Positions 10,361 to 29,250 of a DNA stretch of 30,006 nt are shown piece by piece (position 1 is the stretch's first letter; each line of letters opens with the position of its first letter). The notes below the pieces were generated by a model. It did no database searches, was not told the origin of the DNA, and worked only from the letters and a program-made list of their open reading frames with translations. The stretch is from positions 1-30,006 of the IMG/VR virus record IMGVR_UViG_3300042891_000941, one strand, 5' to 3'. Source of the stretch: a virus. The translations under genes were made by a program, and so were the position numbers.

Positions 10361-12256
10361 ATGTCAGCAGGTGTGGGAAATTTAATTGAAGCTAGTGATT
10401 ATACTAGTATAAAAGCAAAGGTTGATGCAGTATTTGGATCTGGTGCTAGTGATAGCGGGTATGGACAGTCAATCACATCTCCTGTGAAAGTCCAAGGTGA
10501 TTTGATTTCTCATTCTGAATGGGTTAATTTACGCAATGATATGGCAAAGGTTCGTCAACATCAGATAGGTGGACTAATTGGGTCATCTACTGCATTAGAT
10601 GGTGGGAATTTAGTTATAGTAACCACCGGGGCATCAATTACTGAAGCTATCAGAAATCAATATAATAATTTTTCAAATGTAATTACCACTGATAGATTTG
10701 TAATCGACATCAATAATAAATCAACGTCTTCTGGGACATCAGCAACGTATACATCTGAATGGAATGGTGAACTAATCCATACACTTGCCATGATTGGTGC
10801 ATCATCTGGTGATGGTTCTGCGAATAATATCAGATATTTTTTTAATAGCGGCGGGGTGCTGAATTTTAGTGCGACTAGAACTGGTGCCGGGATTGTGATT
10901 GGAACAGGTTCTAATAATGAAAAATATACAGCATGGTCTACCCTGTTAAATGGATTAGGTACTATTAGTTTTGGATATACCGAAACTTCTACGACTGGTA
11001 GTGGTACCGGGTCTTCAATCGGGTGGTATGATTTAACTACTTCTGATCAATTAATATACCAAATACTTGGTAATAATATACCTAGTTTATCTGGGACAGA
11101 ATATTCTAGCAACGCATATCAAATTTATGCAAAACGTGATGTAAATAGTACAACCGTTATATTTAGTATTAAATTCTGTGATTTTGATGTAGTAGGGACG
11201 GACATTAACGTCGGTGGAACATTAACTAGCGGATTAGTACAAGTGCATGCCACTGGTGGAAATGTTACAGTATTGCCGTTAAATGTAAGTGGTATAGGTG
11301 GAAATAACACGTTTAGTGGTGGATCACCAAATCCTCAATACTTTATTTCACCATCGATCACTACAGTGTCACAGGGTGAGTTAATTACAGTTACTGTTAC
11401 TACGCAGTATGTGAATGATTCTACAACGCTTTATTGGGCCAAAACACCAGGAAGTGTTGCCGGTGATGCTAGATTAACGACAGCAAGTGGATCGGTTATT
11501 GTGGATAATAATACTGGATCATTTACTGTTACAATAGCCACGGATGAATTATCACACTCGAATGAAACATTTCAATTACAATTATATACTGATGCTGGGC
11601 ACACAATTTTAGCTGGTGTACCTAGTTCTATTATTACGATCCTTGGTACAAATAGTATAGTAACCGTGAATACCTATACACTTGGTTCTTCATATTTTAT
11701 TGGCAGTAGTTCTTACTCAATATTCTCAGCAGGTGCTAACAAAATGCTATCAAAAGTGACTGTCACAGAAACCTTGACTAGTATTGGTACTGCAGATGAT
11801 GGAACGCAATGGCAAAATGGATATTCTACATTTACAGGAACTTCTTCATCTATAGATTCTTCACCCAACAGCGGTAATATATCTATTGGAACAAGTATTG
11901 CAACATCGGCTGTTAGTAATGGGGTTACAATGACAGTTCCTGCCAACTATGTTATTACCGGAATCGCAGCAGCAGGATATTTATATGGTACAGGTAATCA
12001 AGCTGTTACGCTCACTTCTTATATACTAATAGCGCCATTATTAGATTCGACCGGAAATATTATACCAGAGGATAAAATAGTGCATAGTGGTGCAACAACT
12101 GATACCTTGGTGACATCATGGAATACTTCAGATACTACTGGACCAATTCCTGAAGGAACTGTTATTAGATCAGTAACATTATCTGCAGCAGCAGGAGCTC
12201 ATTACATGACATGCTACGCGACAGTTGTTTACGAAACAATTAAAATACGACAATAA
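10361..12256 (+). CDS. Fibre/virion-associated protein, 631 aa
   Basis: The N-terminus (LIEASDYTSIKAKVDAVFG, then GYGQ, SPVKVQGDLIS and W--LRNDM) is a conserved head seen on many T4-like environmental phage virion proteins. The remainder is Ser/Thr/Gly-rich beta structure. A SITTVSQGELITVTVTTQYV ... NETFQLQLYTD region (about residues 330-420) looks like a Calx-beta/Ig-like repeat. The C-terminal ~180 residues form an unrecognised beta-rich domain. The Shine-Dalgarno AAGGA precedes the ATG. Its place directly after two fibre genes supports an adhesin or decoration role, but receptor and function cannot be read from the sequence. Confidence 0.6.
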   Translation: MSAGVGNLIEASDYTSIKAKVDAVFGSGASDSGYGQSITSPVKVQGDLISHSEWVNLRNDMAKVRQHQIGGLIGSSTALDGGNLVIVTTGASITEAIRNQYNNFSNVITTDRFVIDINNKSTSSGTSATYTSEWNGELIHTLAMIGASSGDGSANNIRYFFNSGGVLNFSATRTGAGIVIGTGSNNEKYTAWSTLLNGLGTISFGYTETSTTGSGTGSSIGWYDLTTSDQLIYQILGNNIPSLSGTEYSSNAYQIYAKRDVNSTTVIFSIKFCDFDVVGTDINVGGTLTSGLVQVHATGGNVTVLPLNVSGIGGNNTFSGGSPNPQYFISPSITTVSQGELITVTVTTQYVNDSTTLYWAKTPGSVAGDARLTTASGSVIVDNNTGSFTVTIATDELSHSNETFQLQLYTDAGHTILAGVPSSIITILGTNSIVTVNTYTLGSSYFIGSSSYSIFSAGANKMLSKVTVTETLTSIGTADDGTQWQNGYSTFTGTSSSIDSSPNSGNISIGTSIATSAVSNGVTMTVPANYVITGIAAAGYLYGTGNQAVTLTSYILIAPLLDSTGNIIPEDKIVHSGATTDTLVTSWNTSDTTGPIPEGTVIRSVTLSAAAGAHYMTCYATVVYETIKIRQ

Positions 12257-13214: not shown

Positions 13215-14009
13215 TTAAGTTCTCTTAAATAAGTTAATAAAAGATTTGAGTAATGATCCAGAAGTTTCTTTCGGTTCATTACTTTCTAGTCTTATTTCAG
13301 ATTGTGGTGGGATCGGAGGCTCTGGTGCTTTATAAACATATGAATCGGCCATTGGGAATATTTTAGTAATGGCTTTAGCACATTCTAATGCCAATTCTCG
13401 ATGTTCCTTTTGTGTAGATTCTTCTGTACGAACTTCAATAAAATGCACCCAACTACGAATGGTTCCATTGACATATAATCTACTTTCTGTTAATCCTTCT
13501 GGTAATACTGCCCTTGCTTGTTCTTTAGCAATTCCGTTAGCGATTGCCCATTTGTAAGCGCATGTTGCCAAATCAATTACCTGTAATTGATAACTCTGCC
13601 AGGTATCATCCATACTTTTATATTGAGCATCGGTAAGATCGACTTGTAATGAATTCTGACGATTTTTTAAATCTTGCAATCTTGTTTCACGAGTTACAAA
13701 ATTTAAATCTTTAGTTGGGTCCGCATATCTTTGACTGAATTCTTGGAAACTGAAACTTCTATGACGCAATAATTGACGAGCAATATCCCTTGTCGTTTCA
13801 ACTTCAATACAAGCACTTACCATTTCTAATGGACTAAAGTGCTTATGTTTGATTAGATACTTGATTAATTTATCACTCGTGTCTGTGTTATATTGATTTG
13901 AAGGATTTGATACCCTAGCGCAAAATGCAATCAATTCCTGTGCATCTTGGATACCATTATTAGCAAATTCCTCTGTTGGTTGAGAGTATGATACTAACTT
14001 AACTGTCAT
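13215..14009 (-). CDS. thyX: Flavin-dependent thymidylate synthase ThyX, 264 aa
   Basis: ThyX makes dTMP from dUMP using FAD, NADPH and methylene-tetrahydrofolate. The signature RHRxxSxxExSxRY is present as RHRSFSFQEFSQRY at residues 82-95. The downstream dUMP/FAD-binding layout GTIRSWVHFIEVRT ... Q-EHRELALECAKA is also intact. The protein exceeds the usual ~210-250 residues because of a proline-rich C-terminal tail (APEPPIPPQSE) ending in SFINLFKRT, which is not part of the fold. It is the last gene of a - strand unit and overlaps the upstream 106-aa gene by 4 nt. It supplies dTTP for replicating an AT-rich genome. Confidence 0.95.
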   Translation of the reverse strand: MTVKLVSYSQPTEEFANNGIQDAQELIAFCARVSNPSNQYNTDTSDKLIKYLIKHKHFSPLEMVSACIEVETTRDIARQLLRHRSFSFQEFSQRYADPTKDLNFVTRETRLQDLKNRQNSLQVDLTDAQYKSMDDTWQSYQLQVIDLATCAYKWAIANGIAKEQARAVLPEGLTESRLYVNGTIRSWVHFIEVRTEESTQKEHRELALECAKAITKIFPMADSYVYKAPEPPIPPQSEIRLESNEPKETSGSLLKSFINLFKRT

Positions 14010-14326
14010 AAATTTATTTTCCTTAACATTTTTTTAATTGATTTTTCGACATCTTTTCTAACGCGAGAAGTGTCAATTTTAACATCAATATGATCAATAT
14101 GATCCTCGTATGCATCTAAAATTTCAAATAACCCATCTTTGAATTCATTCAGCTTTTTACGAGGGCTTTTTGGAGCAATACCAATTTCCCACGATTTTCC
14201 ATCTTTGAAGTTTATTAAGACTTTTTGAACGTAATCAACTGGTAACACATTAAGTGTTACCTCGTTGAATACTTTGTCCCAGTCATCTATTTCCTCAAGT
14301 GGGGTAGATTTCTGAAAATGCATCAT
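14006..14326 (-). CDS. Conserved hypothetical protein, 106 aa
   Basis: No enzyme motif is seen. The N-terminal half is EEIDDWDKVFNEVTLNVLPV followed by VQKVLINFKDGKSWEI, a strand-rich segment. The C-terminal half is charged and helical (DVEKSIKKMLRKINL). I recall similar proteins in T4-like cyanophages with no known function. It is coupled by ATGA overlaps to both neighbours: the 208-aa gene upstream and thyX downstream. Confidence 0.65.
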   Translation of the reverse strand: MMHFQKSTPLEEIDDWDKVFNEVTLNVLPVDYVQKVLINFKDGKSWEIGIAPKSPRKKLNEFKDGLFEILDAYEDHIDHIDVKIDTSRVRKDVEKSIKKMLRKINL

Positions 14327-14949
14327 ACCGCAGTTTTTTGTTTTCTAGGTTTTTTAACAATAGGCACCAGTTCTTCGGCCATTCGTCTAAAATTTGCAGC
14401 TTCCTTCGCTAATCTATCGGCTTCTGAACGATATTTTTTAGCTTGTTGTTCTGGGGTCAACTGTTCAACTGGTGATTCCACCGCTGGCTCAACATTGACT
14501 GATGCTGAAGTTGTTTTAGATGGGTCATCTACTGGTTGAGTTGTTTCAGGTTTTTTATCACCGGATTTCAATGCCAACTCATCTAGTGAAATTCCACGTT
14601 GATCAGCGATGATTTGATTCAATTCAGATAATAAGATGGAATATGCTGGTCGTGGGAGCATTTCAATCTTATCAGTGCCAACTTTTATAAGTTTTCCTCG
14701 TGCATGCAATGCTGATAACATAATGCTACCATCTGAAAAATTAGTTCTAGCTAATGATTCTGCAAATTCATATGATGATTGTCCTGAAGGACTTTCAACT
14801 AAATTAATTAATGCATCATGATATTCATCAGGTAGGCTTTCAGTTGGTATGATTAGGCAGCTATATGCATCACCAGGAATTGTTCTATATGCGACTATGC
14901 ATTTCTTGCCGGTTGATTTGATTCTTCCGATGTGTTTTAAATTACTCAT
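14323..14949 (-). CDS. Conserved T4-like hypothetical protein with coiled-coil tail, 208 aa
   Basis: The N-terminal ~130 residues (LKHIGRIKSTGKKCIVAYRT, IIPTESLPDEYHDALI, LVESPSGQ, LNQIIADQRG, LDELAL) form a compact conserved domain. I recognise it from T4-like environmental phages, but its function is unknown. A Thr/Pro/Ser-rich linker (about 133-163) leads to a charged helix (LTPEQQAKKYRSEADRLAKE, 164-183) that is probably a coiled coil, ending in a basic tail (KKPRKQKTAV). The start codon follows the previous gene's stop directly (TAAATG) with an AAGG ribosome-binding site. Confidence 0.65.
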   Translation of the reverse strand: MSNLKHIGRIKSTGKKCIVAYRTIPGDAYSCLIIPTESLPDEYHDALINLVESPSGQSSYEFAESLARTNFSDGSIMLSALHARGKLIKVGTDKIEMLPRPAYSILLSELNQIIADQRGISLDELALKSGDKKPETTQPVDDPSKTTSASVNVEPAVESPVEQLTPEQQAKKYRSEADRLAKEAANFRRMAEELVPIVKKPRKQKTAV

Positions 14950-15174
14950 TTACACACCTTCAGGATTGTTAGCTGTAGCTTGTTTTGACACTTGCTCTAA
15001 AAATGCAGCCAATTTGTTGTAAACGTTCCCAACAGCTGCCATTTCTTCTGCTTTGTACGCACCGCGAGTGGCAGCTAAATCGACTGCTGCTTTAAGAGTT
15101 GCTAGGTCGTTGATGTTCAACTCAGCAGTAGGCTGAGTTGAAGTTTCGGTTGTGTTTTCACTTTGTTCTGTCAT
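14950..15174 (-). CDS. Conserved small T4-like protein, 74 aa
   Basis: A Thr/Gln-rich N-terminus (MTEQSENTTETSTQPTAELN) precedes a helical domain LNINDLATLKAAVDLAATRG ... KAEEMAAVGNVYNKLAAFLE. I recall near-identical small proteins beside the same 208-aa partner in other T4-like phages; no function is known. An AAGGA Shine-Dalgarno lies 7 nt upstream. It is the first gene after the sigma70-type promoter at 15274-15302 and heads the unit that ends with thyX. Confidence 0.65.
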   Translation of the reverse strand: MTEQSENTTETSTQPTAELNINDLATLKAAVDLAATRGAYKAEEMAAVGNVYNKLAAFLEQVSKQATANNPEGV

Positions 15175-15201
15175 GTTATTTCCTTATAACGTGTTATTTA
15201 C

Positions 15202-15486
15202 TTATGCATGTACAAATGGACATGCAATCAAGAAAAAGCTCATCTCTTTCTCTTCTTCGAATCCAATTTGTGTATTATACACGAATGAATTCTTGTTGTC
15301 AAGCATTATTCCTTGCCCGACGTAATATCTATTATTTAAATTCAATTCAATCCACTCACTAATATTTTTTACAGTTTTTGGATTATACGAAGATAGTGAG
15401 AAGTATTTGAAATGCGGGGGCGCATATTCAACCCTCCGCATTTTGAAATAATTCAAGGGATTTGGCTTGCCGTTTTTCAACGCCAT
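15202..15486 (-). CDS. Conserved hypothetical protein, 94 aa
   Basis: A basic, aromatic-rich protein (NYFKMRRVEYAPPHFKYFSL, then ISEWIELNLNNRYYVGQGI). No known domain is recognised. Its start overlaps the VWA gene's stop by one base (TAATG), so it belongs to that unit. The C-terminal third of its coding sequence also contains a perfect sigma70-type promoter facing the next genes: the residues LDNKNSFVYN are encoded by the -35 to -10 stretch. Confidence 0.6.
   Translation of the reverse strand: MALKNGKPNPLNYFKMRRVEYAPPHFKYFSLSSYNPKTVKNISEWIELNLNNRYYVGQGIMLDNKNSFVYNTQIGFEEEKEMSFFLIACPFVHA
15274..15302 (-). promoter_or_regulatory. Sigma70-type promoter inside the 94-aa gene
   Basis: On the - strand: TTGACA (15302-15297), a 17-nt spacer, then TATAAT (15279-15274), both full consensus. 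Transcription would begin near 15267 and serve the 74-aa, 208-aa, 106-aa and thyX genes. Confidence 0.85.
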
Positions 15487-16679
15487 TAGTCAGTGCCCTT
15501 TACATCATCATAGTAAGCATATTCGCCGAACGGTGGAACAATTGAAGTAGTTCCGTGACCAATGAAGACGGTGTCACAATAATCTGCATCACCCCATGAT
15601 CCACATGGATACATGTCTGTAAACATAATGAATTTTTTAGGAACAATATCTCTATCTTTCATATATTCCCAATTTACTTCGAAATCGGTGCCACCGCCAC
15701 CCATTGGCTGATAATGGTCGAATTCATCCATTGTATATCCGTCAAAGTCGGCTTCATTATAGATGCTTGTATCAAAACACCATAATTTAATTTTGAAATC
15801 TTGATATTCTTGCATAATACCTTTGATTTCGCTTAAAAAATCTTTGGCTTGATCATTACTAATTGAACCTGACATATCAATACTTACACAAATATCAATA
15901 GTATCTTTCAAATTTGAACCTGGTAAAATAGCAGACAAATGCCAGCTTTTTCTACTTGGACGCATCCAAGAATAATCTTCTTTGATTACACTTTGAATTT
16001 GTTGACGCAAAATTTGACGCCAGTTCATTTTCGGTTCAGTTAATTCTTGAATCAACCGTTGTACACTTGCTGGGATATTTCCAGCGCCGGATGCTTGTGC
16101 TGCCGCCATTACTGCTTCACGAACTTCATCACGAATGCCACGCAGTTCATCTTTTGTGTAAACTGGTCTATCAGGATTATTTGGATCTTCTTGTTCCCAG
16201 TCGATGTGTTGGTCGAGTAATTCACCCAATTTATCCAACATTTCGTCATTATGATCTTTTAAGAGATCATAAATTTCTTCAGCTCCCATACCGTAGTATT
16301 TTTGGTCGTGTAGAATATTGATTCCTGGAATTTGCCAATCACCAATTTTATCACGAACAATTTGACCATTAACACAATAGTCAGCAGCCCAATTGAACAA
16401 TTTTGGATGGCGACCTTCACGACGACTCATATGGTCGAATACGTTGTGCATGATTTCATGCGCCAACACGAATTCAATTTGGGGAACTGTCAATGGTTCA
16501 AAAAAATCTTTATTGAAAAAAATGTGTTTGCCTTCGGTTGATGCTGTTTTACACCATTCACCACCTTCTTTAATAATCAGGCGTGTTGCTAGATTTCCAA
16601 AAAATGGATGACGTAATAACAAACCAACCCTAGCAATGATGATATTGTCTTTAATCTTATCTAATACTGGATCTGACAT
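15486..16679 (-). CDS. VWA-domain protein with HExxH metallopeptidase-like region (CobT-like partner), 397 aa
   Basis: Residues about 15-110 hold a zincin-like region with HEIMH at 74-78 and a following FNWAADYCVN, the pattern of the putative VWA-associated metallopeptidase family (DUF2201 type). The C-terminal half is a von Willebrand A domain with the MIDAS motif DMSGS (268-272), GGGGTDF (about 327-333) and TDMYP (about 354). The ATG at 16679 is preferred: it has an AGGA Shine-Dalgarno 6 nt upstream, while the more upstream in-frame ATG at 16757 lies inside a terminator hairpin. AAA+ ATPases of the MoxR/CobS type work with VWA partners (CobT-like), and that ATPase gene is directly upstream. 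Whether the peptidase site is active and what it acts on are unknown. Confidence 0.8.
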   Translation of the reverse strand: MSDPVLDKIKDNIIIARVGLLLRHPFFGNLATRLIIKEGGEWCKTASTEGKHIFFNKDFFEPLTVPQIEFVLAHEIMHNVFDHMSRREGRHPKLFNWAADYCVNGQIVRDKIGDWQIPGINILHDQKYYGMGAEEIYDLLKDHNDEMLDKLGELLDQHIDWEQEDPNNPDRPVYTKDELRGIRDEVREAVMAAAQASGAGNIPASVQRLIQELTEPKMNWRQILRQQIQSVIKEDYSWMRPSRKSWHLSAILPGSNLKDTIDICVSIDMSGSISNDQAKDFLSEIKGIMQEYQDFKIKLWCFDTSIYNEADFDGYTMDEFDHYQPMGGGGTDFEVNWEYMKDRDIVPKKFIMFTDMYPCGSWGDADYCDTVFIGHGTTSIVPPFGEYAYYDDVKGTD

Positions 16680-16732
16680 TTGTATTCCTAGTAATTTGAA
16701 AAGGACTATTAATCCCTGGATGTTAAACTTAA

Positions 16733-16759
16733 GGTTGGGGGCTGAAACAACCCCCAACC
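16733..16759 (-). terminator. Hairpin between the AAA+ and VWA genes
   Basis: A perfect 9-bp GC-rich stem (GGTTGGGGG / CCCCCAACC) with a 9-nt loop begins 7 nt after the ATPase stop. Only a weak TTAAGTTT follows on the - strand, so it probably attenuates rather than fully stops transcription into the VWA gene. This would set more ATPase than VWA protein; that is inference. Confidence 0.65.
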
Positions 16760-16766
16760 CTATATG

Positions 16767-17852
16767 TTACTGCTCAGTTGCGCTTGAAATGTATTTTCCA
16801 TATTTTTTATGGAAATCCAAGAAGCATTTGATTTCATCGATGTCAAATGGCAATTTGTAAGACGACAGCGCGATTTTGGTACCCATGATAACCAACTCAG
16901 TTTCAAAGTTGTCCATCATAAACTCGAAGAAGCAGTTAGCTTGGTCGTTCCAATCTTTATCTTTGCGGTCAGCACCATCTTTCAATTCGTAGCACAACCC
17001 AACGGTAAGAGCGTACATCGCTGAAATTTCTTTATAGTCAAGTTTTTTGACTTTACCTTTCAGTACATCAGTTGGGTTTGGCATTTTACCAGCCAATTTT
17101 TGGTATGCACCGAACTTAATCGCGGTACCTTCGCCAACTGAACCAGCCATCAAGTTCATCAAGGTTTCGTCATCGCAGTCGTTTTCTGTCAACAATTCGC
17201 TAACGAATGACCAAGAACGAGGTGTCGCAAATGCACGTGAGCTTGATTTAGGATCAAAGTTGTTCAAATCACCTTTTGACCAGTTCAAGAAACCCACGAT
17301 ATCTTTGTCGATTTTATTTTCGGTTGCCCAATCAAACCAATCATCAAATGAGTGGGTCATTTCCAAATGGATAAAACGATTTGCTAATGGTGCTGGCATG
17401 CGATAGGTAACACCTTTATCACCTTCGCGGTTACCTGCCGCAACGATTACTACATTGTCAGGTAATGAATAGGTACCAACTTTACGGTTCAATACCAACT
17501 GATATGCCGCAGATTGCACTGATGGAGCAGCTGAGTTCATTTCATCCAAAAATAAGATGATACGGTCGTACTGTTCAGCCATTTTCATGCCAGGTAATTC
17601 AGATGGTGGAGCCCATTTCATAGTACCTTCTTTATCGTCGAAATATGGTACACCTTTAATGTCAGTTGGATCCCATAATGATAAACGCACGTCAATGACT
17701 AAATCATTAGCACCGTCATCACCGATTTGTTTGATCAAATCAGATTTACCAATACCTGGTTGCCCCCAAATAAAAATTGGTCTTTTAACTTTTAAGGCTT
17801 TGATGATTGCTTTTTTTGCTGATTTTGGGCCTACTGCGCGAGATTCACTCAT
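16767..17852 (-). CDS. MoxR/CobS-like AAA+ ATPase, 361 aa
   Basis: Walker A is GQPGIGKS (30-37), Walker B ILFLDE (99-104), sensor 1 is the Asn of AAGN (141) and a sensor-2-like ATPRSW lies at 209-214. The segment WDPTDIKGVPYFDD after Walker A is the beta-hairpin insert typical of MoxR/CobS-type ATPases. T4-like cyanophages carry a core gene called cobS of this general class; there is no CobN here, so a cobaltochelatase role is not supported. With the VWA-metallopeptidase gene just downstream it forms a two-gene AAA+/VWA module, likely a chaperone or remodelling machine. Two tandem consensus promoters precede it, and AGGAAA lies before the ATG. Confidence 0.88.
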   Translation of the reverse strand: MSESRAVGPKSAKKAIIKALKVKRPIFIWGQPGIGKSDLIKQIGDDGANDLVIDVRLSLWDPTDIKGVPYFDDKEGTMKWAPPSELPGMKMAEQYDRIILFLDEMNSAAPSVQSAAYQLVLNRKVGTYSLPDNVVIVAAGNREGDKGVTYRMPAPLANRFIHLEMTHSFDDWFDWATENKIDKDIVGFLNWSKGDLNNFDPKSSSRAFATPRSWSFVSELLTENDCDDETLMNLMAGSVGEGTAIKFGAYQKLAGKMPNPTDVLKGKVKKLDYKEISAMYALTVGLCYELKDGADRKDKDWNDQANCFFEFMMDNFETELVIMGTKIALSSYKLPFDIDEIKCFLDFHKKYGKYISSATEQ

Positions 17853-17887: not shown

Positions 17888-17916
17888 ATTGTAACGTATT
17901 AAATATACATTGTCAA
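17888..17916 (-). promoter_or_regulatory. Sigma70-type promoter (proximal) for the AAA+ gene
   Basis: On the - strand: TTGACA (17916-17911), a 17-nt spacer, TACAAT (17893-17888). The leader to the ATG at 17852 is about 30 nt. It lies 71 bp downstream of a second promoter. Confidence 0.8.
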
Positions 17917-17958: not shown

Positions 17959-17987
17959 AGTATACTACTAGGATTTTCGTTTGTCAA
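17959..17987 (-). promoter_or_regulatory. Sigma70-type promoter (distal) for the AAA+ gene, -10 inside a palindrome
   Basis: On the - strand: TTGACA (17987-17982), a 17-nt spacer, TATACT (17964-17959). The -10 sits within a perfect 12-bp palindrome GTAGTATACTAC (17957-17968), a possible operator. Confidence 0.8.
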
Positions 17988-17996
17988 CTAAATTTT

Positions 17997-18389
17997 TTAC
18001 TTTTGTAAAGATCGTTGACGCTCGTTTAATGATTTTATTATACCATATTTTCTAATATCATCTGAAAATAAATGTAGTTCAAAACTCTTTATTTCAGAAA
18101 ACACCGTAATACTTTGATTGGTGAGAAAATATGGACAATCAATAAATCGAGATAAGTATATCACTGTTTGAGGGCTCTTGTCAATAGGTTCCGTAAACGG
18201 AATTTTATATGCTTTAAGACCCAACGTGTTAACCAAGAAATCCAATCCTTCACCAGACAATCTGTATGAATTATTTGAAGATCTATTACTATGCCACCAT
18301 TGCCTTGAGTAAAACTTCAAGTTGGCGTCATCCGTACTTTTACCCCATTGAGATAGGAATATCTTGGTTAATGAAGTTCTATCTATCAT
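17997..18389 (-). CDS. Conserved hypothetical protein, 130 aa
   Basis: No enzymatic motif is identified. Visible blocks are YRLSGEGLDFLVNTLGLKAY (about residues 42-61), TVIYLSRFIDCPYFLTNQSI (about 75-94), a FELHLFSDDIRKYG segment and a basic C-terminus. The pattern recalls conserved small proteins of T4-like environmental phages with no known role. It overlaps the upstream 96-aa gene by 4 nt (ATGA). The 144-bp gap downstream contains the AAA+ promoters and no gene. Confidence 0.6.
   Translation of the reverse strand: MIDRTSLTKIFLSQWGKSTDDANLKFYSRQWWHSNRSSNNSYRLSGEGLDFLVNTLGLKAYKIPFTEPIDKSPQTVIYLSRFIDCPYFLTNQSITVFSEIKSFELHLFSDDIRKYGIIKSLNERQRSLQK
18155..18184 (-). promoter_or_regulatory. Possible sigma70-type promoter inside the 130-aa gene
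   Basis: TTGACA (18184-18179) and TATACT (18160-18155) on the - strand are separated by 18 nt, one more than in the other promoters here. It lies in coding sequence, so it could be chance. Confidence 0.35.
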
Positions 18390-18676
18390 TTTTTCGATGC
18401 CTTCATTGTTAATTTTACAACATTAAACGCCTCTGTGTCAAACTGTAAATTTAACTTTTTTGCTAAATTGTGAGCATGCCCTGGATTAGAAAAACTGGTT
18501 TTTTTATATTTTGGGCCAGGGTGACTCACTAAACTATTAAACGATTTCAAATTGAAGGCGGCTGATTCATAGAACACTGCCCATATTGCATTGTCCTCGG
18601 CTGCCAATATTTGATCCGTCTTATATGATGTTTTATCGGTGTATTCTAATAATACATGCGGTTTTGGTCTACTCAT
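18386..18676 (-). CDS. Hypothetical protein, 96 aa
   Basis: The start at 18676 (MSRPKPHVLLEYTD) is chosen because AAAGGA lies just upstream; a longer frame starting at 18721 would run through the late promoter box and has no ribosome-binding site. The protein contains NAIWAVFYESAAFNLKSFNS and PGPKYKKTSFSNPGHAHNLA, and ends in a basic tail. No family is recognised. Its own GATAAATA late box at 18703-18710 suggests late expression of this gene and perhaps the next one, unlike most of the - strand block. Confidence 0.55.
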   Translation of the reverse strand: MSRPKPHVLLEYTDKTSYKTDQILAAEDNAIWAVFYESAAFNLKSFNSLVSHPGPKYKKTSFSNPGHAHNLAKKLNLQFDTEAFNVVKLTMKASKK

Positions 18677-18702
18677 TGAGGTTCCTTTATTAACTACGCA
18701 TA

Positions 18703-18710
18703 TATTTATC
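18703..18710 (-). promoter_or_regulatory. T4-type late promoter box (GATAAATA)
   Basis: GATAAATA on the - strand lies 26 nt before the ATG at 18676 and just after the upstream glycosyltransferase stop. It is identical to the boxes at 6430 and 28830. Confidence 0.55.
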
Positions 18711-18720
18711 AAAAAATGCA

Positions 18721-19515
18721 CTACTGATTTTTGCTGTAGAATTTTTTATAGTTATGAATTATTTCAACATGTTCTGGAATACCTTTGGAAATGGCAAACG
18801 TAGTTGGGTAGTCGTAATGACTATAATAATCATACTCGTTTGTGCCCTCTGGGTCGAATACATTGACAATATTAGGATTCTTTACAAAAGCCTTGCCGGA
18901 AAGCAAGAAAAAATATGTATTAAATGAATCTTGCCAACCAGTTTTTTCATATATATTATTACGAACATAATTAAAATTTTGTTCAACCCATCGTTTAACA
19001 TGAAAATAATTATCTAAAAAAGTTTTTACTTTGATGATAGTACCACCCTGTGCACCATAACCATTGATATTTGGACGGACGCCAGAATATTCTTCTATCA
19101 TATTCATAAATTCATCAGTAAACCCATTTGGAAATCGTTCACCATTCGCAAAGGAGGTATCAAACCCATATACATCAACATCTGGACATGTAATTGGTTT
19201 TAATATTTTAATATCATCTTCTAAATATACTAAATGAGTGGTATTCGCTCGAAAACATGCAATATACATTCTTTCCCAAAATTCTAACACAATTTCCATA
19301 TCATAACCATATGGTTCTTGTGGATAACCAAGTTTCCGTTGGGACTGGTAATATTCTACATTATATTTTTTACAAGCATCAAGACGATCATCACCTGCAT
19401 CACCTAATGCAATGTAATAACTATCTGGATAGAATTCTCGTACATTTTTCATAAGTTCTTCACCGGCAATATGTTGTCCTGGTGAGCAAAACTGTGCAAA
19501 CCCTATTGATGTCAT
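18721..19515 (-). CDS. Glycosyltransferase-like (GT-A fold) protein, 264 aa
   Basis: The protein begins with a beta strand and loop (TSIGFAQFCSPG) and has a LVYLEDDIKI motif (residues 95-104), matching the acidic DxD-type metal/nucleotide-sugar site at the end of a strand in GT-A glycosyltransferases. Later TGWQDSFNTYFFLLSG and HNYKKFY resemble acceptor-side elements. No signal peptide or membrane segment is seen, so it should act in the cytoplasm. Possible targets are phage DNA bases, virion proteins or host surface-glycan precursors; the sequence does not decide. An AAGGA Shine-Dalgarno precedes the ATG. Confidence 0.6.
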   Translation of the reverse strand: MTSIGFAQFCSPGQHIAGEELMKNVREFYPDSYYIALGDAGDDRLDACKKYNVEYYQSQRKLGYPQEPYGYDMEIVLEFWERMYIACFRANTTHLVYLEDDIKILKPITCPDVDVYGFDTSFANGERFPNGFTDEFMNMIEEYSGVRPNINGYGAQGGTIIKVKTFLDNYFHVKRWVEQNFNYVRNNIYEKTGWQDSFNTYFFLLSGKAFVKNPNIVNVFDPEGTNEYDYYSHYDYPTTFAISKGIPEHVEIIHNYKKFYSKNQ

Positions 19516-25651: not shown

Positions 25652-28108
25652 TTAGAATCTAAAAAGAGCATTTGATGATGTCTGTTCATTGGTACTCATT
25701 AGATCCCATTCTAATACACCGATCAAATTTGACACTTTTTTATCAATAATAACAGCTTCCATTGCTGAATGTTCAAATGGTAGTTCTTTAAACCACTGTG
25801 GTAATCTCAGTTCATCAACAGGGTAAGCAACACTGGTAAATCCTAATGGATTATCTTTCAGTTTACATACAATTACTTTAGCACCATCAGTAATATTCAT
25901 TGAATATTTGTCAGAAAATACCGATTTTAAAGTATTCCAATTCAGACTAGCTCGAACATGACCAGGCATATTTGCTTTACCAGTGTTATCTTCTAATGCT
26001 CGATATTTGGTGATATTATTAGCTCGTTTCGGGCTACCTTTTTCCCAGCCTGGTCTTGCTTTGAATAAAGATCTAAATTCTGATATTCGATTCAAAACTT
26101 CTTTTTCAGGAGAACCAGTTAATACCATTTCTAATATTTCACTCAAGAAATTTTGCATGAATTCAGGGGTATCTGATCGTTTCAAATCTAATCCCATTGC
26201 TTTTATCTCACCAGGTTTGCCATCTTTATCTTTGCGTTTCCCTTCTTTATCGTACACTAATACCGCATATCGTTTTTTTGTAATGAACAATGCTTTACTA
26301 CCAACAATTTCTCGTCCAGCTTTAATAACTTCACCTCTAATTGGTGGGCAATGAAATGCTGATAACATGAATGGAGAGAATGTTTTGTTTACGTCTTCAC
26401 CTATCTGATCGTATAATGCAGATACATCTTCTTTCTCCCATGGGATATTTCCAGCTTCTATTTCTTTTTTGAAGATTGGATATGCAGAAAAATAAACCGA
26501 GTCTGTATCACCATAAATAACAGCCTTGCCAATATGATTGTATTCACCTGTTACAATTTGATTAACAGTTCCAGCCATATGTTTAGCAATTTGTCTACCA
26601 GTCAATGTTACCGATTGACCAATACGTTTATCGTAAAATCTACAACCGGCATTTAAAATAGCACCGTATAAACTGTTCAAATTAATTTTTTTAACTAATT
26701 GTCTTTTATCCCAGTATTCTTCCTGTTCTTTATCACCTGCTGCAATAGCTTCCTTGAGTTTCTTTTGCATATCTTTACGTTCAGCATACCATCGTTTTAA
26801 TAATCCTGGAATGATTGCTTCATTTTCATATGTAAAAATAGTACCATTTGCACTTAACATCCATGGCTGTTTTGATTCAAAGATCATTTGATAAATGCGA
26901 TCAGCGCTCGCAACATCAGACCCACCATCTTCCCAGTCAATAGTAATCTGCTTATCGTATTCTTTATTCATAACAGCAGTGTATTCTAATGTGCCAAATA
27001 CACCTTCCCAAGATGCGGTAATTGATCGACCGTTTGCCATCTCAGATTTAAGAAATGCATCGGTCATATCAGGACGAAGCTGACCAACAATAGTTTCTGG
27101 GCCCATATTGAGAGCACGAATTACTGATGGATATAGTGAATTGATGTCTAATGAGCCAACCCAATCATGCAATCCTTCTTTTGGGTTTGCTACATAAGCA
27201 CCAGCTGCCATGTTTTCTGATGTGCTATCAGATTTGAGTCTAGTTGGTACTTGAAACCCGCGTTGATGCGCTTCATTAATAATAGCTTGCTCGGTTACTG
27301 CTACTGCACCCATAGTGGTTTGTAGTAATACCGTATTTTCATGTGCTAATGTATTAGCTAGATCTAAAAACTTTAATTTTTTATCTAGCTTTTCCAACAG
27401 CATAGTATCTTGTCTGTTATATTCAATAAATGTTCTAAAATCATTATTATATAACTGATCAAGTGTTCCCTCATATGCTGTTTTATGCTCACCTAACTCA
27501 TATTCAGCAATTGCATCTAGGCGATAGCTATGACGCTCTTCGTAAGTATATTTGCGATAAAGTTCCAAACTATCCATATGAACTCTACCCACAAAATCAT
27601 AGGTTGATGCTGTCTTACCATATCTTTCATATTCACGTTTTTTCGGGAATTGATTGAATAGACAGAAACGTCTAGTATCATCTTTGCTTAATACTTTGGT
27701 AACCCGATTAACGGTGTATGGAATATCAAAACCTTCTGAATTCCAGCCACTTAATACATCGGCATCTTTTATTAAATCCAAAAATGTATCTAATAGTTCT
27801 GCTTCAGTATTGAATAATATAGTGTTTGGAAATTCTTTGACAATTTCGGTTGCTTCCTCCATTGACAAGGTTTTTGGAGGGATTGCAAGACATACCAGAG
27901 TGTTTAACCATTGTAAGTGAACTGCAATCGCAGTAATTGGCATAAATGCATCATCTGGTGATGCATATCCTGGTCCAGGTTTTAAATAGCTACAATCTGC
28001 AATATTAACCCATTTTTTTAATGTTTCATCGTAAACTTCATACTCATCTTTATTTTGTATGTTACTTAATTCAAATACTGATATTTCTTTTTCTTCCAAT
28101 ATTCCCAT
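25652..28108 (-). CDS. 43: DNA polymerase (family B, T4 gp43-like), C-terminal fragment, 818 aa
   Basis: It carries all polymerase motifs and most of the proofreading exonuclease: Exo II WNSEGFD (122-128), Exo III YNRQD (230-234), motif A SLDINSLYPSVIR (319-331), motif B KKINLNSLYG (473-482), motif C YGDTDS (532-537) and thumb KKRY. The C-terminal SSNALFRF resembles the clamp-binding tail of gp43. Exo I is missing because it lies in the separate fragment at 28861-29250. The first ~7 residues (MGILEEK) overlap the homing endonuclease's 3' end in another frame and are probably not ancestral; homology is expected from EISVFELS. A GAGG Shine-Dalgarno precedes the ATG, so the piece can be translated on its own and would need to assemble with the N-terminal piece. 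Confidence 0.93.
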   Translation of the reverse strand: MGILEEKEISVFELSNIQNKDEYEVYDETLKKWVNIADCSYLKPGPGYASPDDAFMPITAIAVHLQWLNTLVCLAIPPKTLSMEEATEIVKEFPNTILFNTEAELLDTFLDLIKDADVLSGWNSEGFDIPYTVNRVTKVLSKDDTRRFCLFNQFPKKREYERYGKTASTYDFVGRVHMDSLELYRKYTYEERHSYRLDAIAEYELGEHKTAYEGTLDQLYNNDFRTFIEYNRQDTMLLEKLDKKLKFLDLANTLAHENTVLLQTTMGAVAVTEQAIINEAHQRGFQVPTRLKSDSTSENMAAGAYVANPKEGLHDWVGSLDINSLYPSVIRALNMGPETIVGQLRPDMTDAFLKSEMANGRSITASWEGVFGTLEYTAVMNKEYDKQITIDWEDGGSDVASADRIYQMIFESKQPWMLSANGTIFTYENEAIIPGLLKRWYAERKDMQKKLKEAIAAGDKEQEEYWDKRQLVKKINLNSLYGAILNAGCRFYDKRIGQSVTLTGRQIAKHMAGTVNQIVTGEYNHIGKAVIYGDTDSVYFSAYPIFKKEIEAGNIPWEKEDVSALYDQIGEDVNKTFSPFMLSAFHCPPIRGEVIKAGREIVGSKALFITKKRYAVLVYDKEGKRKDKDGKPGEIKAMGLDLKRSDTPEFMQNFLSEILEMVLTGSPEKEVLNRISEFRSLFKARPGWEKGSPKRANNITKYRALEDNTGKANMPGHVRASLNWNTLKSVFSDKYSMNITDGAKVIVCKLKDNPLGFTSVAYPVDELRLPQWFKELPFEHSAMEAVIIDKKVSNLIGVLEWDLMSTNEQTSSNALFRF

Positions 28109-28811
28109 CGTTCCCTCGATATTTTGAAATATATGTTACACAAGCACCATTTTCTAATAATCCATTATAATGTTGTAATCTATACTTTATTTGTCTATAA
28201 GTATATCCAGTTATAGACAATACATCATCATATGATGAAAATTCAATTGTTTCATTGTTGACTGTAGTCATCAAAAATGTAGAACTTTTCCCCTTTTTGA
28301 TAGAATCACCACGTTTTTTATGATCACATTTTTGAACTGAATTTTTCATTCGTAAATCCATGTCTTCTTTAGACATTAATGATAATGTAGATTTTAATGT
28401 ATTCCTTACCTTATCATAATCGTAGTTATAAACTCCGGATTTATGATTTTGCAAAAACTTTTTTTTACGGTCTATGCATTTATTAGGATTATTTTCAGAA
28501 AATTTGATTCTAGCCGCTGAATATGAATGACTAGTAACCCGATATTCATTGTATCCTTTTCTAGTTTTTGACATCCACCATAATGCATATATCATTTTTT
28601 TATAAAATATAGGTGTATCTTTATATATTTTAACCAATAATAAATGGCATATAAAATGTTCACGGGTGGTTAACAATACTAAATTTTCTTTACTATTATC
28701 ACCACCACAACTACGTGGTATTATATGATGCTTTTCTAACAATATATTTTTAGTTCTATTTTTTAATTGTGCGGATTTAATTATATCGTTGTATATTTTT
28801 AAATAATTCAT
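28071..28811 (-). CDS. HNH homing endonuclease inserted in the polymerase gene, 246 aa
   Basis: The HNH site is LEKHHIIPRSCGGDNSKENL (25-44) followed by REHFICH (50-56). H28/H29, N43 and H52/H56 fit the metal- and DNA-cleaving positions. The C-terminal part (SSYDDVLSITGYTYRQIKYR, about 193-212) looks like a NUMOD-type helix-turn-helix for DNA recognition. Basic residues dominate and the gene appears more AT-rich than its neighbours, consistent with transfer. It has a GGAG Shine-Dalgarno and its own GATAAATA late box. Its last 38 nt overlap the start of the C-terminal polymerase fragment. T4-like phages are known to carry such freestanding endonucleases that break essential genes. Confidence 0.9.
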   Translation of the reverse strand: MNYLKIYNDIIKSAQLKNRTKNILLEKHHIIPRSCGGDNSKENLVLLTTREHFICHLLLVKIYKDTPIFYKKMIYALWWMSKTRKGYNEYRVTSHSYSAARIKFSENNPNKCIDRKKKFLQNHKSGVYNYDYDKVRNTLKSTLSLMSKEDMDLRMKNSVQKCDHKKRGDSIKKGKSSTFLMTTVNNETIEFSSYDDVLSITGYTYRQIKYRLQHYNGLLENGACVTYISKYRGNDGNIGRKRNISI

Positions 28812-28866
28812 AGTATTCTCCTTTAGAATTATTTATCATTATTACTTCGATATCAAACAATCATTG
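28088..28866 (-). mobile_element. Homing-endonuclease insertion splitting DNA polymerase (about 779 bp)
   Basis: Joining the codons before 28866 to those from 28087 restores a continuous HMVKIRKK + EISVFELS reading, giving an intact protein of about 939 aa (T4 gp43 is 898). Both junctions are A-rich (AGAAAAA on each side). The insert is not a multiple of three, shifts frame and is almost filled by the HNH gene. The exact ends are uncertain by a few bases. Confidence 0.65.
28830..28837 (-). promoter_or_regulatory. T4-type late promoter box before the HNH gene
   Basis: GATAAATA on the - strand lies 18 nt before the HNH ATG, with GGAG between them. It would drive late transcription of the endonuclease and, by read-through, the C-terminal polymerase fragment. 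Confidence 0.6.
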
Positions 28867-28935
28867 TTTTTTTCTGATTTTAACCATGTGCTGGGATGAT
28901 ACTGCAAATGCTTGCATATCAACCTCAATATCAAA
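28837..28935 (-). repeat. Imperfect duplicated Exo I coding segment flanking the polymerase N-fragment end
   Basis: On the - strand 28935-28915 encodes FDIEVDM (real Exo I). After the stop, 28857-28837 in the same frame would encode FDIEVIM. Three codon differences are synonymous third-position changes and one codon differs. The copies are 78 nt apart. Confidence 0.45.
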
Positions 28936-29250
28936 CCATGCTACATTAAGCTTTGGTGCATCTTGGTTTATGTAATGTTCACTGAGACAAACAAATATTG
29001 GGTTTAGATCGGCTTCAAAAAGTTTTTTGTTACCATTGACAGCTACTTCTTTACGAAAATCTCGTGTATTTTTACATACAACTTTCGTTAATGGTTTGCC
29101 ATATATTGATCGGTATTTTCCTTTAGTATCACCATAATAAAATGTAGGTTTTACTGGGAAATCTCGGTATTCTCTACCACCTGCTTTATTGCGTTCAACG
29201 ACTTTTACAATATCAGCAGTTTTATCAAAAAATGCATCTACATAGCTCAT
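28861..29250 (-). CDS. 43: DNA polymerase (family B, T4 gp43-like), N-terminal fragment, 129 aa
   Basis: The sequence matches the N-terminal domain of gp43: KPTFYYGDTKGKYRSIYGKP (about 34-53) aligns with T4's PTMFRHCKEESKYKDIYGKN. VAWFDIEV at 103-110 is Exo I, with catalytic D107 and E109. The frame then runs through MQAFAVSSQHMVKIRKK and ends at a TGA created by the downstream insertion. On its own it can have no polymerase activity; it would have to bind the 818-aa fragment to restore proofreading. It overlaps the upstream Cys-rich gene by 4 nt (ATGA). Split gene 43 is known from some Aeromonas T4-like phages, though this break lies unusually near the N-terminus. Confidence 0.88.
   Translation of the reverse strand: MSYVDAFFDKTADIVKVVERNKAGGREYRDFPVKPTFYYGDTKGKYRSIYGKPLTKVVCKNTRDFRKEVAVNGNKKLFEADLNPIFVCLSEHYINQDAPKLNVAWFDIEVDMQAFAVSSQHMVKIRKKQ

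Follow-up and report, generated by a model that had tools for sequence, protein, structure and literature searches.

A MoxR-type ATPase and a zincin-like VWA protein encoded side by side in a lake-type phage: a possible NorQD-like remodelling machine of the N4 gp24/gp25 families

The stretch of DNA analysed here, referred to as the window, comprises 30,006 nucleotides (nt) of the IMG/VR virus record IMGVR_UViG_3300042891_000941. On its minus strand, at 15486-17852, a gene for a MoxR-type AAA+ ATPase is followed by a gene for a protein that joins a zincin-like domain to a VWA domain. Such a pair had been named in a preliminary description made from the sequence alone, and the open reading frames (ORFs) as well as the Pfam and PHROG matches confirmed it. 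The ATPase gene covers 16767-17852 and encodes 361 amino acids (aa), and the gene for the VWA protein covers 15486-16679 and encodes 397 aa. An alternative TTG start at 16757 would add 26 aa to the VWA protein. Since this codon lies inside an RNA hairpin between the two genes, and since the VWA proteins of relatives begin near the ATG at 16679, which is preceded by AGGA, the ATG is likely to be the start of the gene.

The ATPase matched phrog_1297, the family of N4 gp24, over nearly its full length (E = 2e-101, residues 3-356), as did the VWA protein with phrog_1314, the family of N4 gp25 (E = 1e-108, residues 31-417 of the ORF with the TTG start). The VWA protein, with its DUF2201_N and DUF2201 domains, also matched PF13203 (8e-38, 131 bits; gathering threshold 23.2) and PF09967 (6e-13, 49.4 bits; gathering threshold 26.4), while the ATPase scored 21.7 bits against PF00004 (cut-off 21.2) and fell just below the cut-off for PF07726 (26.3 versus 27). 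Judged from sequence, the family matches of both proteins are far beyond chance, and the pair is not a new system: phrog_1297 and phrog_1314 are the gp24/gp25 pair of phage N4, to which this lake-type phage adds a new member. In tblastn searches (E up to 1e-3) of 50,697 phage records, relatives of the ATPase were found in 821 and relatives of the VWA protein in 769, spanning the N4-like Schitoviridae, the Vequintavirinae, jumbo phages, one cyanophage and others. Among the matches listed, the isolates nearest by VWA protein included 30-3, Atu_ph07, PBECO4 and GAP32, and those nearest by ATPase included 30-3 and SCTP-2.

N4 and its homologues in the Schitoviridae share with the window both families, their order and both sets of motifs, and in N4 a ThyX-type gene lies about 1.5 kb downstream of the pair. 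The N4 proteins are 28% (ATPase) and 26% (VWA protein) identical to those of the window. They differ in that the N4 junction measures 167 nt, that several relatives have a tight one, and that two companion genes of the window (p74 and p208, see below) were not found in that locus. In the text available to us, gp24 had been called an AAA ATPase and gp25 a vWFA protein by 2009 (PMC2784036), and Iyer et al. described a jumbo-phage MoxR-vWA pair with a metallopeptidase fusion in 2021; as in the window, the vWA domain of the group 2.2 jumbo phages is fused to an N-terminal metallopeptidase (PMC7824862). No function for phage MoxR-VWA pairs of the gp24/gp25 type was found in the PMC literature searched. 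The accessible part of the CRISPRi-ART study, where transcriptome-wide screens cover T4, T5, SUSP1 and PTXU04, held no fitness data for gp24/gp25 of N4 or EdH4, two phages that appear there for capsid and rII genes. Relatives are present in about 800 phage records, coliphages of K-12 among them, and with N4 on E. coli K-12 the function of the pair is directly testable.

The pair is easily overlooked because phrog_1314 and RefSeq records label the VWA family as HNH endonuclease (NC_008720 gp25 and NC_019401 GAP32_211, for example). A Pfam search found no HNH domain in the VWA protein of the window. In CB7 the two genes are separated by one annotated as HNH, and in KpS8 such a gene stands directly 3' of the VWA gene; these neighbours are a possible source of the mislabel.

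In the ATPase, Walker A (GQPGIGKS, residues 30-37) is encoded at 17742-17765 and the Walker B region, which ends in D103-E104, at 17541-17558. In the VWA protein, the putative zinc-binding and catalytic motif HEIMH (residues 74-78) is encoded at 16446-16460, D100 and N104, a candidate further metal ligand and the structural asparagine of the zincin-like domain, at 16368-16382, and the DMSGS motif (residues 268-272) of the metal-ion-dependent adhesion site (MIDAS), completed by T331 and D355, at 15864-15878. K36, E75 and DMSGS had been singled out beforehand, correctly in both sequences.

To examine conservation, 285 loci (numbered with the prefix L) were reduced to 257 complete VWA proteins in 145 clusters at 90% identity, and 130 ATPases were aligned. 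H74 and H78 were found in all 145 clusters and E75 in 144, and the MIDAS residues D268, S270, S272, T331 and D355 were each found in all 145, although part of the loci had been collected by means of peptide patterns, several of them built on HE-x-x-H or GGGGT, which makes the motif counts there partly circular. The zincin-like domain thus combines an HExxH motif with a conserved presumptive further ligand, D100, which like N104 was present in 144 clusters; the single miss is the poorly aligned PALS_2 protein (L155). In the ATPases the residues of Walker A and B, sensor 1, the arginine finger and sensor 2, assigned to these roles by position, are conserved as in the MoxR class, with N141, R159 and R212 in 130 of 130 sequences and K36 in 128, the remaining two being gapped. 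Tblastn or accession had supplied 22 annotated phages, of which 19 entered one alignment and 19, not an identical set, the cluster set, and HExxH was present in 18 of 19 in each. The exception is Atu_ph07 (L136) with HQILH, while its 49%-identical relative Phosso keeps HEVLH. The near-invariance of these residues suggests that both proteins are probably active, as the preliminary description had argued from the intact motifs, and that the machine matters to the phages.

The two genes also travel together. We examined 30 records (22 phage genomes and 8 IMG/VR contigs, some possibly incomplete) which had been picked via one of the two genes or, in one case, because the phage was N4, and both genes were present in all 30; the VWA gene was recognized in 29 by PF13203 and in PALS_2 by a hidden Markov model of our own (9.5e-14). 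The ATPase gene is upstream of the VWA gene on the same strand in 138 of the 145 clusters, with a gap of at most 150 nt in 120 of the 138. In EdH4 it lies 3.7 kb from the VWA gene on the opposite strand, in three clusters it is missing from the locus (KpS8 and VBP32, both of which have it elsewhere in the record, and L184), and three further loci were too short to judge. Pairwise distances among the ATPases correlate with those among the VWA proteins (r = 0.852 for 51 pairs; best of 999 permutations 0.198), a value obtained without a control pair and to which shared ancestry contributes.

In the preliminary description the ATPase had been typed as MoxR/CobS. The MoxR assignment held, whereas CobS proved the less apt comparison: the match to the CobS-like phrog_249 is weak (4e-5 versus 2e-101 for phrog_1297) and the predicted fold lies nearest to NorQ. 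A cobaltochelatase or Mg-chelatase pair resembling CobS-CobT and feeding host B12 synthesis would have the MoxR-VWA plan in common with the phage pair and would agree with the phrog_249 match, but the ATPase is closer to NorQ and midasin and the zincin domain is N-terminal. CobN, already reported as absent, exceeded the family cut-off in none of the 30 records, with one sub-threshold match of 15.2 bits, a result that does not exclude a CobN of the host. None of the larger proteins examined in the window, a 30-kb fragment that was not scanned with a CobN model, was annotated as CobN. Because no CobN above the cut-off was found in relatives, the pair is not taken to be an ordinary cobaltochelatase; a chelatase role is largely refuted and has very little probability left, and the filing under CobS/chelatase was dropped on the CobN search and the fold comparison.

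The AlphaFold2 (AF2) models of the ATPase and the VWA protein had predicted local distance difference test (pLDDT) values of 91 and 86.4, respectively. In the ATPase model the helix-2 insert of the MoxR class is predicted as a hairpin (strands 68-72 and 77-81, pLDDT about 90). In a Foldseek search of the PDB, the ranking of which also served for the comparison with RavA that had been suggested at the outset, the predicted ATPase fold was closest to NorQ and NorQ-NorD (E = 3e-9), with CbbQ2 at rank 21. By sequence, the best PDB match of the ATPase was midasin (4.6e-9), and the MIDAS domain of MDN1 was at ranks 5-6 among the fold matches of the predicted VWA domain (about residues 257-394, Z about 13). 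Midasin/Rea1 (MDN1) is one giant eukaryotic chain and is not known to have a zincin domain.

The partner of NorQ, NorD, likewise has a C-terminal VWA domain with a complete MIDAS, and differs in that no zincin domain is named for it in the available text of two studies (PMC13036017, PMC9976466). As described there, the VWA domain inserts a finger into the pore of the NorQ ring and the C-terminus touches the post-sensor-1 loop; according to the proposal made in that work, the VWA domain is twisted relative to the N-terminal part as ATP is turned over (PMC13036017). One strand links the finger to the MIDAS site (PMC9976466). In the window, residues 216-260 of the VWA protein (PKMNWR...RPSRK...LPG; 15900-16034), immediately ahead of the MIDAS strand, are a candidate for such a finger. 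The segment matches the NorQD finger in position, a stretch of 48-66 residues from P216 to D268 is conserved in relatives, pLDDT is low (53-59) around 231-260, and the chains of relatives end 6-21 residues past the glycine of a conserved PPFG. By analogy, the protein may dock in the same manner.

On this model the ATPase would form a hexameric ring, as its relatives do, and the VWA protein would dock in the pore via the pre-MIDAS segment and its C-terminal end. The MIDAS metal would grip an acidic residue on a client protein, and ATP turnover would twist the VWA domain against the N-terminal zincin-like domain, whereby the client would be reshaped. The machine would thereby bring the zincin domain to bear on the client, which would most likely be cut by it or have a metal handled there. 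We therefore put forward, with middling confidence, that the pair is a phage MoxR-VWA remodelling machine that works like NorQD, has a zincin domain of its own, acts in takeover and genome replication and is probably no component of the virion. The direct basis of this proposal lies in the two genes, their co-occurrence and adjacency, the near-invariant motifs, the predicted folds and the gene context, whereas the ring, the docking mode, gripping, cutting, timing and target of the machine are inferred.

Several observations weigh against the proposal, beginning with the shared ancestry that contributes to the correlation of the two proteins. The NorQ motif GRxLL/IxxxxT was not seen in the helix-2 insert of the phage ATPase (consensus residues 56-95, inspected by eye), so the pair works like NorQD at most and was not filed as NorQD. 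The VWA domain has no large insertion, the finger being assigned by position only, and none of the PDB matches listed covered the N-terminal half of the VWA protein, which does not show a new fold. The models are of monomers, and neither a complex structure nor a client enters the argument. Cutting may be dispensable in Atu_ph07, given its HQILH. Finally, the pair lies directly 3' of virion structural genes in PBECO4 and GAP32, single structural genes are found near it in S-TIM61, PhAPEC7, RHph_X2_28B and RiverRider, and absence from virions, as described below, would also be compatible with an assembly chaperone.

These last observations favour a different role, in which the pair is a chaperone of virion assembly with a maturation protease, folding or trimming head or tail proteins. 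In the available texts, virion assembly is what Iyer et al. propose for the group 2.2 jumbo pair (PMC7824862), and the pair p618/p892 of the archaeal virus ATV, an interacting MoxR ATPase and VWA protein that are likewise encoded by a virus, was assigned to tail development, with p618 a major virion component (PMC4124505). The ATV pair differs from that of the window in having p618 in the virion and in lacking a peptidase domain (PMC7824862). In the window clade the context is one of replication and nucleotide synthesis: the window pair lies with genes for PolB, an exonuclease and ThyX, while genes with tail-type matches are on the opposite strand, and in many annotated relatives an RNA polymerase, helicase, DNA polymerase, dCTP deaminase or thymidylate synthase gene stands beside the pair. 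The virion proteins found in CB7, 26 in all with numbers in the range CB7_4 to CB7_37 or the numbers CB7_55 and CB7_251 (PMC7344957, Table 4), include neither the MoxR protein (CB7_108) nor the VWA protein (CB7_110), and no MoxR is named among the rV5 virion proteins in the text at hand; the available parts of the RaK2 and KP8 papers name neither protein. Unlike p618, therefore, the pair is no part of the virion where this was looked at. We regard a role in assembly as possible but doubtful. Since the pair stands among genes for replication and nucleotide synthesis and is preceded by sigma-70-like promoters, the proposed remodelling machine would rather act during takeover and genome replication.

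The gene context also bears on a third role, that of a NorQD-style cofactor or metal-insertion chaperone for an enzyme with which the phage makes nucleotides, for instance in the thymidylate synthase or ribonucleotide reductase branch; the zincin-like domain would then carry or sense the metal and would not cut. The closeness of the predicted ATPase fold to NorQ and the exchange of E for Q in Atu_ph07 would suit such a role. So would the thymidylate synthase gene, ThyX or ThyA, that 16 of the 30 records have on the strand of the pair and no more than 10 kb downstream of it, including R7L, where the profile match is below the cut-off and the gene is annotated as thymidylate synthase. However, the synthase is elsewhere in 10 records and was not found in 4, and per cluster at 50% identity the linkage holds for 8 of 18 assessable clusters (six seed proteins only). 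At the end of the block stands ThyX in the window clade (13215-14009, minus strand; PF02511, 9e-44) and, in the same place, the unrelated ThyA in PBECO4 and GAP32 (L137, L144); ThyA also follows the pair in RHph_X2_28B. The two enzymes share no fold, and the linkage may be inherited gene order. Neither ThyX nor ThyA is known to require metal insertion. Metal insertion is in our view unlikely, and the thymidylate synthase linkage was rejected as proof of function and kept as a lead. The cyanophage S-TIM61 (L140) encodes both enzymes, ThyX at a distance of about 2 kb downstream of the pair and ThyA some 16 kb upstream.

MoxR-VWA pairs also occur in conflict systems, as the preliminary description had mentioned. 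PADLOC gave no match of weight for either phage protein. Compared with VMAP-type conflict systems, the VWA protein has no effector C-terminal to the vWA domain, the VWA fold reaching residue 394 of 397, and the two genes that precede the ATPase (130 aa and 111 aa), in the position of the VMAP gene, have no Pfam match (no VMAP profile was run). A machine of counter-defence or host attack that dismantles or cuts a host complex would be in keeping with the rIIA/rIIB genes near the pair in N4 and EdH4 and with one cellular relative in a defence-like island, but motifs kept near-invariant across many phage groups seem less typical of the patchy genes of counter-defence, and we consider this role improbable. 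The cellular relative in question (L194, 432-10930) is a MoxR-VWA pair on a Spirochaetales contig among genes for a reverse transcriptase, a DNA methylase, DUF499 and DUF3780. It is one of 31 loci in contigs of bacterial genomes, some of which are probably phage contigs in metagenome bins, as their high identity suggests. Another cellular pair (L187, 3033-11076) is located between a Na/Ca exchanger gene and genes for complex I/Mrp-type antiporters.

The junction of the two genes contains a further element. In the window, a 15-bp RNA hairpin lies at 16730-16762 (minus strand), in between the stop codon of the ATPase and the start codon of the VWA gene; folded as a whole, the 96-nt junction has a minimum free energy of -30.7 kcal/mol (z = -3.86; none of 200 shuffles was as stable). 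This strong hairpin is not accompanied by a promoter. Two sigma-70-like promoters, both consensus matches at 11 of 12 positions, lie upstream of the ATPase on the minus strand, at 17959-17987 (TTGACA-17-TATACT) and at 17888-17916 (TTGACA-17-TACAAT), and the window as a whole has 9 at 11/12 or better, versus 2.8 (standard deviation 2.0) in 30 shuffles. A T4-type late promoter before the pair was considered and rejected, as the sole exact match to TATAAATA is at 11978-11985 on the minus strand; with fewer matches than expected by chance, no statement on timing was drawn from late promoters.

In relatives, the junction often holds a 29-nt sigma-70-like promoter, TTGACA-17-TATAAT, the spacer of which is a covarying hairpin (examples are L232, L010, L273 (8933) and L261 (8931)). 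Using a pattern for promoters with a 17-nt spacer that is blind to pairing, all five inner spacer pairs were complementary in 58 of the 71 clusters that have such a promoter in the junction, compared with 2 of 200 at other places in these loci. Hairpin-bearing promoters with a match of 10/12 or better numbered 77, versus 4.0 in shuffled sequence, and with a stricter pattern 62 of 64 elements were in the junction or just upstream of the VWA gene, the other two being in L049. Covariation was measured on 43 of the 49 distinct junction promoters, hairpin-bearing or not; each of the other 6 is identical in its first 23 nt to one of the 43. It amounted to 0.436, versus 0.120 in shuffles and 0.083-0.221 in slid versions, and cells changed on both sides numbered 72 versus 26.5 in shuffles, bearing in mind that related sequences can exceed shuffles without structure. 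Two other measures gave no clear separation: the number of pairs changed on both sides was reached by 34 of 500 shuffles and that of further pair types by 174 of 500. Among 36 distinct fully paired elements, the loop was UNCG in 23 and the closing pair C-G in all.

The strict pattern was present in eight of ten large contigs, as a single copy in seven and as two copies in one; since the contigs were chosen for size and all but L125 were already known loci with the hairpin promoter, only the copy number is informative. When 80 of at least 120 IMG/VR stretches found by the DNA pattern alone were inspected, the next gene downstream was the VWA gene in 57 and another gene in 21, with no room for a gene in 2, and the element is thus not exclusive to the pair. 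It precedes other genes in L287, L301, L302, L305, L308, L326, L339, L344, L353 and others. A hairpin of some kind was found in 87 of 94 clusters with a gap of more than 12 nt (without shuffle control), and 25 clusters, mostly of cellular, S-TIM61-like and N4-type pairs, have a tight junction. The twin of the window, L015, was scored as having a tight gap and no hairpin solely through the TTG start of the ORF caller, and L136 was counted among those lacking a hairpin since its loop is larger than the chosen limit.

The junction element would separate the output of the two genes, although not in all lineages. Tentatively, the NorQD-like twisting machine with its zinc peptidase, serving takeover or replication, might have the amounts of its subunits set separately: in the window clade a hairpin promoter would dampen transcription running on from the ATPase gene and initiate a message of its own for the VWA gene, which would fit a six-to-one ring. 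The element is the newest thing in this analysis and looks unusual, a newness that was not compared with the literature. Known points of comparison are the intercistronic CUUCGG hairpins of T4 and MerR-type promoters.

Small genes keep their places around the pair in near relatives (14006-15486 and 17997-18721 in the window). All are on the minus strand: a 94-aa ORF (15202-15486) that overlaps the stop codon of the VWA gene and follows that gene in most near relatives among the matches listed, the 74-aa and 208-aa genes p74 and p208 (14323-15174), and, on the other side of the pair, p130 and p111 (130 and 111 aa), which precede the ATPase (17997-18721). The 94-aa ORF matched no Pfam family over threshold. 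It was considered as a third partner common to all such pairs and rejected, since the corresponding position in the 22 annotated phages showed no clear homologue; a single weak match was located elsewhere in 30-3. The order p111-p130-ATPase-VWA-p74-p208-thymidylate synthase is partly kept into the jumbo phages, and all four small genes also occur in some distant ones; p74 and p208 adjoin the pair in PBECO4 and GAP32, while 30-3 and Atu_ph07 have them at a greater distance within the region.

Further along the minus strand, the PolB gene is apparently split (25652-29250). A group I intron was considered as the cause and rejected, as the region gave no Rfam match. The N-terminal ORF (28861-29250) ends near DIEVD, and an HNH homing-endonuclease ORF (28071-28811) separates it from the remainder of the gene at 25652-28108.

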